Of a stretch of 37,953 nt of DNA, positions 9,020-35,885 are shown piece after piece. Position 1 is the first letter of the stretch. Every line of letters starts with the position of its first letter. The position numbers were made by a program, and so were the translations under genes. The notes beneath the pieces are model-generated. The model saw nothing but the letters and a program-made list of their open reading frames with translations, was not told where the DNA came from and made no database searches. Location of the stretch: assembly GCA_022565155.1 (NCBI GenBank), contig JADFKB010000013.1, forward strand, positions 1 through 37,953, written 5' to 3'. This DNA is from Chloroflexota bacterium (lineage in GTDB: Bacteria > Chloroflexota > Dehalococcoidia > DSTF01 > RBG-16-68-14).

Positions 9020-9301
9020 TGTCCAAACACCTCTACTACAGAATACCTTTACTGGTGAACCCGTAGCAGTTCCCGCGCTCATAGTTCCCGATTACGCCGA
9101 AGTCGTACAACCCACGTTGGGCGACACTAACCCACTATGCAGACATAGTGTCTACTCTAGACCTCCCCAATGCTGCGTGGCCCGCGCCGCAAAAGCGAGT
9201 CCAGAGCTAGCGTAGATGCGCAAGTTTGATACACTTCCGAAACATCCTCTGGGACATAAAGAGTTATAGTTCGAATCGGGACACCGGATTTGCTTCGTGC
9301 C

Positions 9302-10408
9302 ATGATGCGCTACGGTCCAATGGTCTTGAAGGCACTCATCGCTGCGCGCACTATCGGCGTCGGTGCAGTGATTGGTATAACCTCGGTCCTGCTCATCGCA
9401 TGCGGTAGCCCAGATGGCAGCACCGGGTCCAGTCCGACGACAGGCCAATCACCATCTGACATTCAGGGGACCGAAGGTTCCCGCCCAAACTTTCCTCGGT
9501 CGCGCTTCGTTCCGCTCGACAACCCTGACGTCGTTTCCGCTGAAGCCGCGAGCTTTCTCCAGCCAGATGATCGCGTGCTCGGAGTGACCGTCAACGGAGA
9601 GAGCCGCGCCTACCCCATAAGCATGATGACCTTTCATCATGTAGCAAATGACATCGTCGGTGGCGAGCGAGTTCTCGTCACCTTCTGAATACGCTGCAGC
9701 TCTGGGGTCGGTTTCGACCCCGTCATCGACGGCCAGGCCTATACGTTCGAGGAGTTCGGTCTCCGCGACGGGGTCATGGTCATGACCGACAGGCAGACGA
9801 ATAGCGTCTGGTCACATCTTGACGGCGAAGCCTTCGAGGGTCCAATGATCGGAACGGAGATGAGCTTCCTGCCTCTCATCCACACGACATGGGAGGAGTG
9901 GCTGGCGCTGCATCCAGAGACGTCTGTCCTCTCTTACGAGACTGATTTTCAATCGCAGTATCGCAACGTGACGATCGGAATGCCTAATGGCAGGTTTGAT
10001 CGAGAACTGTTGTCGGTAGACGACCGGCTACGTTCAGAAGAGCTGGTCCTTGGCGTAATGGTGGGTGATGCGTTCGTGGCCTACCCGGTAACGTCGTTGG
10101 AGCAGACGACCGGCGTCATTAACGTCCAAGTCGACGGCACGCCGATCGTCGTCTTCTATGATGCGGTAGCTAACGCCGGCATCGCGTTCTCGCGCAACCT
10201 CGACGGCAAGATAGCACGCTTCGAGCGCGCCCCAGGAGCCTCCTTCTTGGCCGTTGACAGCATCAGCGGTTCTCTTTGGGATTTCTCGGGACGCAACGTC
10301 TCAGACGACCTTGCGGATGCCTCTCTGACGTTTGAGACGTCATACCTGAGCGAATGGTATGGATGGTCTGCCTATCACCCAGACACGACCATCTACGAGG
10401 AGCCCTAG
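9302..10408 (+). CDS. DUF3179 lipoprotein with in-frame TGA at the conserved Cys: candidate selenoprotein
   Basis: Read through the TGA at 9686-9688, one frame encodes 368 residues of a DUF3179 protein. ATG 9302 is chosen; TTG 9290 and ATG 9305 are alternatives with no strong ribosome site. Residues 1-34 are a lipoprotein signal ending in L-I-A-C (lipid-modified Cys34). The first DUF3179 half has R-F-V-P-L-D-N-P-D-V-V-S, V-N-G-E-S-R-A-Y-P, N-D-I-V-G-G and V-L-V-T-F. The family then usually has C-P-L-C; here it reads TGA-I-R-C (position 129, then Cys132). The second half repeats the pattern (A-Y-P-V, V-D-G-T-P-I-V-V-F) and ends W-S-A-Y-H-P-D-T-T-I-Y. There are no other stops or frameshifts. 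Selenocysteine at 129 would make a U-x-x-C redox motif outside the membrane. A simple nonsense mutation (TGC or TGT to TGA) is the alternative. Base composition looks less GC-rich than its neighbours. Confidence 0.8.
9704..9721 (+). promoter_or_regulatory. Candidate SECIS hairpin of the DUF3179 gene
   Basis: GGGGTCG (9704-9710) pairs perfectly with CGACCCC (9715-9721) around the loop GTTT. The loop begins 22 nt after the TGA at 9686-9688 and its first base is G. This meets the bacterial SECIS pattern as I recall it: a short apical loop with an early G, roughly 16-37 nt after UGA. G-G-U falls at nucleotides 22-24 after the TGA. Confidence 0.6.
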
Positions 10409-10642
10409 ACTAGACGTACTAGCATGCAGCCCCATTGGCATATGGTGTGGTAAGGCCTTGGCGAAAGGCGATCCGATTCATTCCCCGATGGCACCAGAAG
10501 AAAACCGTTCATATAATGTGATCGAGCAGCTGCGACTGGGATCCCAGAGAGTCGGACGGCTGAGGCCAGTCGGGCTGCCGATGTCTCCGGAGCTGAAGCA
10601 TTTGAGGAGTGTAGCCTGGCAAGCGCCACAGTTCGTCCAACG

Positions 10643-14221: not shown

Positions 14222-16206
14222 ATGAGCGCCATCGACGACGTCAAGAGCCGCATCGATATCGTAGACCTGATCGGGGAGTCCGTAGCGCTGAAACGCGCCG
14301 GCCGCAACTTCCGGGCTCTCTGCCCCTTCCACACGGAGCGCACGCCCTCGTTTCACGTCTCGCCGGAGCGGCAGACCTGGCACTGCTTCGGCGCCTGCGG
14401 TACCGGCGGCGATGTCTTCAGCTTCCTGATGAAGCGCCAGCAGATCGAGTTCGGCGAGGCGCTGCGCATCCTAGCGGATCGCGCCGGCGTCACCCTGGAC
14501 GACCAGCGCGACCCGAAAGAGGACGAACGCCGCCAACGCCTGCTCTCGGCGAACGAGACGGCGGCGGCCTTCTTCCACAACGCCCTCCTCCACGCAGAAG
14601 CCGGCGCGGAAGCCCGCGCCTACCTGGCCGAGCGGGGGCTTGACAAGCCAACGATCGAAGCGTTCCAGGTCGGCTACAGCCTCGATAGCTGGGACGCCCT
14701 GCGCAATCACCTGACGGAGCGCGGCTTCACGCCGGACGAGCAGCTAGCGGCCGGCCTGTTGGTGGAGAGCGATCGCGGCGGCTACGACCGCTTCCGTAAC
14801 CGGCTCATGTTCCCGATTCGGGACGCCCGAGGCCGCGTCGCCGGCTTCGGCGGCCGCGTATTGGCATCGGCGTCAGACGACCCGGCGAAGTCAGCAGGCG
14901 CGAAGTACATCAACACACCGCAGTCGCCGATCTTCGATAAGAGCGGCCTGCTCTACGGGCTGGATCGCGCAACCGATGCCATCCGCAAGGAGAAGACCGT
15001 CGTCGTCGTTGAAGGCTACATGGATGCCATCGCCGCTCACCAGCACGGCATGGCGAACTGCGTCGCATCGATGGGCACGGCGTTGACGGAGCGGCAGATC
15101 CGGACGCTGGAGCGCTTCCGCAGCAAGATCTTGCTCGCTATGGACGCCGACGCCGCCGGCATTGAGGCGACGCTGCGCGCGCTGCAAGAGGCCGGTGCTG
15201 CGGGCGCGATCCACGCCAGCTCTGCGACTGTCCACCCTGAGGCGCTCGGAGAGGACGAGTTCTCGAATCGGACCCGAGAGTGGTCCCGCAACGCGCTCAA
15301 GCGCGCCGCCGTCAACTTCTTCGTTATCCCGCTCTCCGGGAAGGACCCGGACGAGATGATCCGGGCCGACCGCGAGGGCTGGGACGCCGCCGTCGCCGCG
15401 GCGAAGCCGTTCACCGACCACATATTCGAGACCGTCGCCAACCGCAGCGACCTCTCGCAGCCGAATGGCCGCTCACAGCTCATGCAAGAGTTGCTACCCG
15501 TCGTCCGGCTGATCGATGAGCCGGTCTTCCGCGCCCACTACGTACAACGCCTGGCCCGCCTCGCCCAAGTCGAGGAAGAGGCCGTGCGCGGGGAGCTGCG
15601 CCGCAAGCCCGCCCGAACAGCCCGCCGCGACGCGACCGACGACCCTGCGGCCAGGCAGCCGCTGCGACGCGAGCCGGCGGAGGAGTTCTGCCTGGCCCTG
15701 TTGCTCCGCCACCCCGAACTGCGCCTCGAAGGCAGCGATCTCTCCCCGGAGCTCTTCCTGCTCAGCGAGCACCGCGCGATCCTGAGCGCGTGGACGGAGA
15801 CGCCCGAGATCGAGCCGCTGCGACAGGCGCTGCCGACGCCTCTCCACGAGCAGCTCGACCGCATTCTGGCCAGAGACCTGCCTGTGCTGGAGGGCGCGCA
15901 GCTACGCGCCGCCTTCCACGATTGCGTTCGGCGCATCGAGGTGCGCAGACTCTCGGCAGCCAAGCGGGCGAGCGCAGCCGCGCTCACCGACCCGGACGTA
16001 CAGCAGTACATGAGCGCAGCCGTGGAACAGGCCGTCGCACTGCAGGGCGCCGGGACTCCAGAGGACACCTCAAGTATTGAAGACGGCGGCCGCACCGCCG
16101 AACTCGCCGCTAGCCTGATCGAAGATACTGAGATGGGCCGCCGGCTCCATCAGATCCCCACCGAACCCCAGCCAGCAGAAACTGCGCAGCGAAGCGAGGG
16201 CGAGCG

Positions 16207-16210
<4 letters not shown>
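14222..16210 (+). CDS. dnaG: DNA primase
   Basis: 662 residues, ATG 14222 with an AGGAAGCGA ribosome site. The N-terminal zinc-binding domain has C-P-F-H (Cys34, His37) and C-F-G-A-C (Cys55, Cys59). The catalytic core carries the TOPRIM motifs E-G-Y-M-D (Glu264) and M-D-A-D-A-A-G (Asp308, Asp310), which bind the metals for RNA primer synthesis. The C-terminal part (about 480-640) is helical and corresponds to the helicase-interacting domain, though weakly conserved. It overlaps the rpoD start by 4 bp, the classical macromolecular-synthesis arrangement without rpsU. Confidence 0.98.
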
Positions 16211-17727
<1,517 letters not shown>

Positions 17728-33780: not shown

Positions 33781-34878
33781 TTAGCTTTTTGCGGCTGCTA
33801 CCTCTTGCCGGGCCAGGTACACAACTTCACCCTCCAGCTTCACCCGGTACGTCGCCACGGGCTTTTGGGCCGGCGTCTTCTTCGGCTCGCCCGTCGCCAG
33901 GTCGAACTGCGAGTTGTGCCAGGGACAGGTGACGACAGTACCCTCGATCTGCCCTTCCGCCAGCGGCCCGTTAGCGTGGGAGCAGCGGTTGTCGATCGCA
34001 TAGATGCGGCCGCCGATGTTGAAGAGCGCCACCTGCTCGCCGGCGAAGTAGACGACGTTCGCTCCGCCCTCCGGAACCTCCGCGAGATCGGCCACCCGCG
34101 CCCAGGCGCCACTATCGCTTCGCGAACGCTCGCCGGCGATCTGGACATCGCCCGGCGCGCCGAGGCTGGCCAGCGCTTCCGGCAGCGGCATGGCGATGCA
34201 GGTGAAGGCCGGCGTGTCGCGCAGCGTGTACTCGCTCGCTTTGGAGTCGCGCAACTCCATCACCAGGTCGAGAAAGTCCTCCGGGCTGTCGGTCTCGAAC
34301 GAAACGACGAACTCCTGGTCGTCGATGCCGTAGGAGTACGTCGTGTTTAGCTTCACGGACGGGTACTGGCGGCCGACGGCGATGTGTTCGGTCATCATCT
34401 CCTGGCGCATCTTTTTATCCATCGCATACCAGGCGCGCGTCTTCACGAACGGGTAGACGAACAGGTACTTGGCGCTGCCGGGACTGACGCGCAGCCGGTT
34501 CTGCGGCTCTTCCGATAGGTCGGGCGTCTTGTAGATCGAGCGGCGCGTCATCGATAAGTAGGAGTACGGCGACCAGAGGTACGGCCCCATCGTCGTGCTG
34601 TAGATCCGCGTGGCGAGCGCCTGGAAGTCCTCCAGCCGCTCGCCCACCTGCCAGAGCAGCAAATCTACGTCGCCGCGGATGCCAACGAGGCTGTAGCTGC
34701 CGATCAGCATCCTATCGCCGAAGGCATCGACCGCCTCGCAGAGCTGGCGGCGGCCGGCCTCGCGGTCGTCCGGAGGCAGCAGCCGCCACGCCGGGTCGAT
34801 CTTGAAGAAACTGAACTTGACGAGCTGGCGCGACGTCGCGCCGGCCTCCGGCTGCGGGCCGTTCGTTCTGTCGCCCAT
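33781..34878 (-). CDS. HemQ/chlorite-dismutase-family protein fused to a Rieske domain
   Basis: 365 residues. The frame is open further upstream, but the family homology and an ATG overlapping the previous stop (TGATG) fix the start at 34878. Residues about 15-235 match coproheme decarboxylase (HemQ/ChdC): S-Y-S-L-V-G-I-R-G-D-V-D-L-L-L-W, V-Y-P-F-V-K-T-R-A-W-Y (Tyr142, probable catalytic Tyr) and M-M-T-E-H-I (His165, probable heme ligand). The end of that domain is T-L-R-D-T-P-A-F-T-C-I. Residues about 258-355 are a Rieske [2Fe-2S] domain: C-S-H (Cys299, His301) and C-P-W-H (Cys318, His321). HemQ makes heme b by peroxide-dependent decarboxylation of coproheme. The fused Rieske centre could supply or accept electrons. 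Translationally coupled to the aldo/keto reductase. Confidence 0.88.
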   Translation of the reverse strand: MGDRTNGPQPEAGATSRQLVKFSFFKIDPAWRLLPPDDREAGRRQLCEAVDAFGDRMLIGSYSLVGIRGDVDLLLWQVGERLEDFQALATRIYSTTMGPYLWSPYSYLSMTRRSIYKTPDLSEEPQNRLRVSPGSAKYLFVYPFVKTRAWYAMDKKMRQEMMTEHIAVGRQYPSVKLNTTYSYGIDDQEFVVSFETDSPEDFLDLVMELRDSKASEYTLRDTPAFTCIAMPLPEALASLGAPGDVQIAGERSRSDSGAWARVADLAEVPEGGANVVYFAGEQVALFNIGGRIYAIDNRCSHANGPLAEGQIEGTVVTCPWHNSQFDLATGEPKKTPAQKPVATYRVKLEGEVVYLARQEVAAAKS

Positions 34879-35885
34879 CAACTCTTCGCTGCCGACGGCA
34901 CCGGCACCGGCTCGCGGAAGACCGTCGGGTAGAGCTGCTCCAGCCGATCGTTCTCGTCGTCGGTCAGCGCCGGCGTTTCCGGCGCGGCGGCGAACTCGAC
35001 AACCTGCGCTTCGTTCAAGATGTTGGGCAGGACGGAGCTGATGCTGGGCTGCGCCAGGACAAACTGGATCGCGGCCTGGCCAATCGTGCGGCCCGTGCCC
35101 TCCCCGTGCAGGAAATCGACGTGCTCCACCTTGGCCATGCTCCTGTCCAGCCACTCCTGCTTTCGATGCGCGCGGTGGTCGGACGAGTCAAAACCTTCCG
35201 ACGGCTTGTATGTCCCATCGAGCAGGCTGGAGGCGTGCGGCACGCGCGAGAGGAGGCCGGTCTGGCACTCCTCGGCCACGGGGAAGAACGCTCGCGCCGG
35301 GTCCTGCTCCAGGATGCTGTAGATGATCTGCATGCTGGCGACGTCGCGCTCGCGCATCGACGCCATCGCCTCCTCCTCCCAGCCGATGTCCGGCCCGATC
35401 GCGGCGCCATAGTGCCGGATCTTGCCTTCCTGCTGCATGTCTTCCAGGGTCTCGAACAGCTCGTCGCTGCGAAGCGCCCAGAGGCGAGGGTTGTGGAGCT
35501 GGTAGAGGTCGATGTAGTCGGTGCCGAGGCGGCGCAGGCTCTGCTCCAGCGCCGAGCGCACGAACGCCGGCGAGAAGTCCTGCGGGAGCTCCTTGTGGCC
35601 GTCGCGCTTGCCGTCGTTGGTGTAGAAGTCGTAGCCGAATTTCGTCGCGATGATGATCTCGTCGCGATTATCTGGGAACGCCGTCGCCAGCATCTCCTCG
35701 CCCTTGCCGTTGCCGTAGGTATCGGCGGTGTCGAAGAGCGTGACGCCTAGATCGAACGCCTGCTGCAGGAGGGCGATCCCCTCGGCCTCCTCTATCGCGC
35801 CCCACCAGGGCGTGCTCACCGTCCAGACGCCGAAGCCAACCTCGGAGACGGTCAAATCGGTCTTGCCGAGCTTGCGATACTTCAT
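34878..35885 (-). CDS. Aldo/keto reductase
   Basis: 335 residues, ATG 35885. The catalytic tetrad is visible: Asp52 and Tyr57 in [10 protein letters not shown], Lys82 in I-A-T-K-F-G, and His131 in L-Y-Q-L-H-N-P-R. The start [14 protein letters not shown] is standard for NAD(P)H-dependent family members that reduce aldehydes and ketones. It shares one base with the downstream HemQ-Rieske start, so the two are one operon. Substrate unknown. A redox link with heme synthesis is speculative. Confidence 0.95.

Follow-up and report, generated by a model that had tools for sequence, protein, structure and literature searches.

Two reviews, PMC9312934 (2022) and PMC13188914 (2026), tabulate the protein family DUF3179 (PF11376) among the selenoproteins, with the motif UxxC/T; the former credits the DUF3179 selenoprotein to Zhang and Gladyshev (2007) and to a deltaproteobacterial symbiont of Olavius algarvensis. 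A DUF3179 protein is also named in the gene table of another paper. The term Chloroflexi has no occurrence in the main text of PMC9312934, the stem Chloroflex has none in PMC13188914, and a literature search for SAR202 returned nothing.

Here we describe a DUF3179 gene with an in-frame TGA in the window, a stretch of 37,953 nucleotides from the draft genome of a Chloroflexota bacterium (GenBank assembly GCA_022565155.1, contig JADFKB010000013.1). A sequence-only reading of the window had taken this gene for a selenocysteine (Sec)-containing DUF3179 lipoprotein and for the probable founder of a new selenoprotein family. The presence of Sec is strongly supported by the position of the TGA among homologues, by the Sec machinery of the genome, and by selection on the codons that follow. 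The novelty of the family had to be given up: because the selenoprotein tables of both reviews already contain DUF3179, the gene is an added member of a known selenoprotein family.

Results

Gene and encoded protein

The reading frame is open from ATG 9302 to TAG 10406–10408 except for a single internal TGA at 9686–9688 (Table 1), with ATG 9305 and TTG 9290 as the other candidate start codons. As the sequence-only reading had stated, the frame has no other in-frame stop and the family motifs are intact on either side of the TGA, the Pfam profile PF11376 matching residues 72–362 across it (E, 8.7e-63; 212.9 bits against a gathering cut-off of 27). A stop-free stretch of 240 codons is expected by chance with a probability of 2.4e-4 at the base composition of the gene itself. 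When the TGA is taken as a stop, the gene splits into two pieces (9290–9688 and 9776–10408), so that genes of this kind are easily mis-annotated. The motif around the TGA reads V-T-F-U-I-R-C, and the only cysteines besides Sec129 are Cys34 and Cys132. The former lies in a lipobox (L-I-A-C34, recognized by eye) that follows a signal-like start, suggesting that the product is a lipoprotein located outside the cytoplasmic membrane. No NCBIfam model matched the protein at E up to 1, and single chance matches were returned by a PDB sequence search (E, 0.53) and by an Rfam search of 9300–10500 (E, 7). Elsewhere in the window, a DnaG primase is followed by a sigma-70 factor (14222–17727, plus strand), and one protein combines a chlorite dismutase-like domain with a C-terminal Rieske domain (33784–35154, minus strand).

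Table 1. Features of the DUF3179 gene, in window coordinates
Feature	Position	Strand	Basis
DUF3179 gene, predicted selenoprotein of 368 residues with Sec at 129	9302–10408	+	frame and PF11376 match
Signal peptide and lipobox LIA-C34, predicted lipoprotein anchor	9302–9403	+	sequence pattern by eye
First DUF3179 repeat, with His112, Asn116, Sec129, and Cys132	9500–9958	+	profile columns, comparison of halves, model pLDDT 95.6
Conserved His112 codon, 17 residues ahead of Sec	9635–9637	+	row alignment
TGA, very probably read as Sec129	9686–9688	+	in-frame TGA in Cys column of homologues
Cys132, partner of Sec129 in U-x-x-C	9695–9697	+	residue alignment
Putative SECIS hairpin, 7-bp stem and GTTT loop, over the GVGFDP codons	9704–9721	+	comparison of Sec genes
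Second, degenerate DUF3179 repeat lacking the Cys/Sec pair (limits approximate)	10019–10405	+	homology of halves

The TGA column across DUF3179 homologues

Three sets of homologues were compared. In 148 genomes, including the genome of origin, the PF11376 profile gave 106 matches, seven of which, all free of internal stops, were left unaligned. One TGA was found in 22 of the 106 matches, TAG in two (L070 and L071), and TAA in none. All 22 in-domain TGAs fall in the same profile column, which is occupied by Cys in 67 other rows. Two further TGAs (column 165) are the ordinary terminators between L009 and L010, a tandem of Cys-type DUF3179 genes that the genome of origin carries alongside the Sec form (C99:17117–19192, minus strand). 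The second set came from a contig scan of named genomes with peptide patterns that exclude the TGA column. Among its 47 loci, the column is TGA in 35 and Cys in 12, and 35 of the 36 TGAs found are in the column. The remaining TGA (column 45) belongs to L128, a Sec-type gene with a split frame, in which this second in-domain TGA stands where two relatives have Trp or residues of a Val-Asn region; L128 is either a damaged gene or an assembly error. The third set, a phylum search of 400 genomes, gave 14 rows with one TGA, two of which (the window gene and that of G073) were already known; the TGA lies in the column in all six rows examined of the 12 new ones. Among the other stops of this set, one row has a TAA and one has two TAGs, the TAA of G253 (L188) being outside the aligned domain.

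Pooled over the three sets, which overlap in some genes, and with read-through terminators excluded, the in-domain TGAs examined number 64, of which 63 share one column, in genomes whose record titles place them in five phyla. The TGA/Cys pairs that the sequence-only reading had proposed to seek among DUF3179 homologues do occur, and all in one place. Taken together with the machinery, selection, and folding results below, Sec is very probably inserted at residue 129, which would make the gene a true selenoprotein gene. His112 is likewise well kept: in the tree set described below, this position is H in 47 of the 48 Sec rows and in 68 of the 69 Cys rows. Over all Sec rows, H is found in 20 of 22 in the 148-genome set and in 34 of 35 in the named-genome scan; the exceptions have R in two cases and P in one, and both L181 rows have V.

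Paralogues of different types coexist in some genomes. In the related genome G103, for example, Cys types are accompanied by four Sec-type DUF3179 genes (L052, L060, L065, and L069), which differ in subtype. In five other loci (L080, L082, L088, L099, and L100), the first Cys is replaced by D, S, or G and the second Cys is absent; part of the DUF3179 family has thus lost the pair.

Sec machinery and selection downstream of the TGA

The genome of origin is a draft of 2.80 Mb in 185 contigs. It contains one tRNA-Sec (82.1 bits, the sole one of 16 matches above the cut-off of 47), together with SelB and SelD, both above the cut-off in profile searches. The Sec machinery that the sequence-only reading had suggested looking for is present in these three components, and SelA was not found in this 92.8% complete draft; G002, a genome of the same family, has a SelA fragment only. 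The gene for SelD, the maker of the selenium donor (L164; C119:11877–12806, minus strand), has an in-frame TGA of its own in the motif CAGUAGK, at the usual Sec site of SelD, so that this protein is apparently itself a selenoprotein. In control genomes, SelB and SelD were each above the cut-off in 2 of 14. Sixteen TGA-bearing genomes were surveyed in the same way: tRNA-Sec was found in 12, SelA above the cut-off in 12, SelB above the cut-off in 14, and at least one of the three in 15. The last genome, G028 (69% complete), in which tRNA-Sec, SelA, and SelB were all not found, carries the TGA form L049, a lone Sec form within a Cys-type branch. Since 99 of the 148 genomes have tRNA-Sec, its co-occurrence with the TGA is weak and uninformative as evidence.

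The nearest homologue of the window gene, L109 from a second draft genome, is 83% identical at the protein level and keeps the TGA. Between the two genes, dN/dS is 0.34 before the TGA and 0.17 after it (239 codons), the sign of purifying selection downstream that had been proposed as a check on the TGA. Against five more distant members, dN/dS after the TGA ranges from 0.14 to 0.31, values that are unsure because dS exceeds 1.

A putative SECIS hairpin overlapping the protein signature

The 7-bp hairpin with a G-initial loop that the sequence-only reading had noticed is present as GGGGTCG-GTTT-CGACCCC, its first base being the 16th after the TGA. Its stem and loop are the codons of G-V-G-F-D-P, so that the candidate RNA signal and the protein signature overlap. 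GGGGTCG-GNTT-CGACCCC, at a constant distance, is present in most genes of the window's type; the majority of the other Sec genes carry another hairpin, of the CGGGCAT-CGTGT-ATGCCCG type, at about that position. When folded alone and compared with dinucleotide shuffles, the hairpin region of the window gene is ordinary (z, −0.65 to −1.70); its support is the comparison among genes.

For this comparison, each gene was recoded at random from its own codon usage, with the peptide left unchanged. From 148 codon rows, 57 of them with TGA (53 distinct), 137 were used (50 Sec, 76 Cys, and 11 other) once rows that were duplicated, short, or interrupted by N or by a stop within the stretch had been set aside. 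The median z of downstream folding is −1.81 for the Sec genes as against −0.17 for the Cys genes, which show little excess (Mann–Whitney p, 4e-10, kinship ignored), and the Sec genes outside the window's type also differ from the Cys genes (p, 2e-5, kinship ignored). Within the window's type, the median z is −2.02 and p is below 0.05 in 16 of 24 genes, the window gene itself (L011) having z −2.12 and p 0.023. Values of p below 0.05 were obtained for 27 of the 50 Sec genes, yet also for 11 of the 76 Cys genes, and no folding excess is seen in L135 or in the three Sec genes with UTLC (z, −0.06 to 0.37). Downstream folding stronger than the protein and codon usage call for distinguishes the Sec genes from most Cys homologues.

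Covariation was examined in two groups of distinct Sec rows (51 in total), 25 window-type genes and 26 others. The 26 others have two-sided changes in six of the seven pairs, in 17 cells, a count reached in none of 500 shuffles, with 13 in the best slid version of the stem. Among the 25 window-type genes, pairing holds in 98.9% of cells. Double changes are seen at two pairs, a number matched in 4 of 500 shuffles, and both stem from one sequence, L126.

The UxxCSSG clade

A tree was built by a quick method from the 122 distinct rows covering column 77 and no fewer than 200 columns in all. The window gene falls in a clade of 25 rows, all Sec (SH-aLRT, 94), from Chloroflexota, Actinomycetota, Acidobacteriota, and Planctomycetota, the last with a single row on a long branch. 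No close Cys relative of the window gene appears on the tree. Over the 122 rows, the Sec label must have changed six times or more, and starred branches force four of these changes; as the tree is unrooted, these changes do not tell gain of Sec from loss.

Members of this clade are recognized by CSSG after the column. In the named-genome scan, 26 loci have CSSG, and the column is TGA in all 26 and Cys in none; these loci come from one genome collection, and because the scan was keyed on the CSSGVGFD peptide or a Trp motif, diverged members may be missed. All five CSSG rows of the 148-genome set have TGA, four of them being identical to genes among the 26 loci, and so do L177 and L178 from the phylum search, the former apparently the same as L127. 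The residues TGA-I-R-C, previously read as a departure from the C-P-L-C of the family, are thus better described as the signature of a clade with TGA in every scanned member. Among 74 ORFs neighbouring 23 of the 26 loci, similar proteins occurred as three pairs and never in a larger group, and no conserved neighbour pointed to a substrate. The retention of Sec across four phyla, with no Cys replacement seen, points to chemistry needing selenium.

Internal duplication and resemblance to Rieske folds

The two halves of DUF3179 are homologous by profile comparison (hhalign probability, 99.9; E, 5.8e-33), showing that the domain is an internal duplication, in which the putative redox pair is kept only in the first repeat. 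The AlphaFold models are confident, with a mean pLDDT of 92.3 for the whole protein and 95.6 for the first repeat. In Foldseek searches, the top matches are Rieske or NirD proteins (the first 18 for the whole protein and the first 11 for the first repeat), none of them with E below 0.001 and many being copies of one carbazole dioxygenase, those of the whole-protein search that include its oxygenase part having an rmsd of 17–20. With E above 0.001 throughout, the whole-protein model has a TMt of 0.57 with 5bok and 0.62 with 5cxm, and the first-repeat model has 0.55 with 3c0d_C (rmsd, 2.9).

Rieske domains of the same genome (ten matches, seven aligned) allow a comparison of residues. The spacing of 17 between His112 and Sec129 and of 3 between Sec129 and Cys132 equals that of H53, C70, and H73 in these domains, whereas the first cluster Cys is absent from DUF3179 (column 58 is variable) and the second His is replaced by Cys. 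The protein has no Pfam match to the Rieske domain (PF00355) at E up to 1, and profile comparison between Rieske and DUF3179 gave no sequence link (probability, <1%). Given the Foldseek E-values above 0.001, the variable place of the first Cys, and the absence of a profile link, the modeled fold of DUF3179 is Rieske-like at most, short of membership in the Rieske family.

Discussion

In the mechanism that we propose, SelB and Sec-tRNA would read the UGA at 9686 as selenocysteine, and the hairpin, as the comparison among Sec genes suggests, would direct this recoding. Bacterial SelB is selective for its hairpin. Sec129 and Cys132 would most likely shuttle between a selenolate/thiol pair and a selenenylsulfide bond, assisted by His112. 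The protein would then be an extracytoplasmic selenol/thiol oxidoreductase, an assignment that we consider fairly probable.

That the TGA is instead a real stop, left by a nonsense change in a Cys-type gene whose downstream part has since drifted, seems to us hardly credible. Other stops do occur in some DUF3179 frames, as in the two TAG matches among the 148 genomes and the TAA row and the two-TAG row of the phylum search, and L128 has an extra in-domain TGA and a split frame, but the concentration of nearly all in-domain TGAs in one column over five phyla and the low dN/dS after the TGA led us to reject this reading; moreover, the tree contains no Cys-type gene near enough to be the source of such decay, and the 83%-identical protein of the second draft genome has the same TGA.

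Two other readings accept the insertion of Sec and differ on what it does. His112, Sec129, and Cys132 might bind a metal or a cluster on a Rieske-like fold, as the leading Foldseek matches to Rieske or NirD proteins and the common spacing of 17 and then 3 would suggest. We think this unlikely, because no Foldseek match has an E as low as 0.001 and many represent the one carbazole dioxygenase, the profile link to Rieske is below 1% in probability, and the variable place of the first Rieske Cys, with no Cys among the residues listed there, leaves only three ligands. NirD, which has the Rieske-type fold, is not known to carry a cluster. Less likely still, the Sec protein could be a selenium or redox sensor or a binding protein with little catalysis: the UxxCSSG loci have no conserved neighbours, and the column is D, S, or G in several surviving Cys-less paralogues, so that part of the DUF3179 family does without Cys/Sec chemistry, but the clade has kept Sec throughout four phyla and showed no Cys replacement, which speaks against such a role for the window gene. 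A selenol/thiol oxidoreductase stays our preferred assignment.

Extending this assignment, we offer a tentative and rather doubtful picture of the UxxCSSG clade as an obligately selenium-dependent extracytoplasmic enzyme that arose by duplication of a Rieske-like fold, with conversion of the cluster site to a selenol–thiol active site and with a GVGFDP sequence partly dictated by the SECIS element. The repeats and the fold resemblance provide a testable idea of the role of DUF3179. With no Cys replacement seen, the clade is well suited to studying what selenium offers over sulfur, and the overlap of the putative SECIS element with the codons of the active site opens the question of how strongly an RNA signal constrains a protein sequence.

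In the literature searched, which comprises texts other than subscription papers and the 2007 paper, there is no mention of a Sec-only UxxCSSG clade, of the hairpin, of the internal duplication, or of a Rieske-like fold. New here are the UxxCSSG clade in four phyla, with TGA in all scanned loci, and the hairpin overlapping GVGFDP, as well as the internal duplication of DUF3179 and models that resemble Rieske/NirD folds below significance. Compared with Cys-type DUF3179 proteins (CPLC or CTLC), the window protein has the same domain, the same repeats, and the same His112, Asn116, and Cys132, and it has Sec where those have Cys. Compared with the DUF3179 selenoproteins as they are described in the accessible parts of the two reviews, it belongs to the same Pfam family and has the same U-x-x-C pattern, but its clade is marked by UxxCSSG instead of UPLC and has no Cys form in any of the 26 scanned loci.
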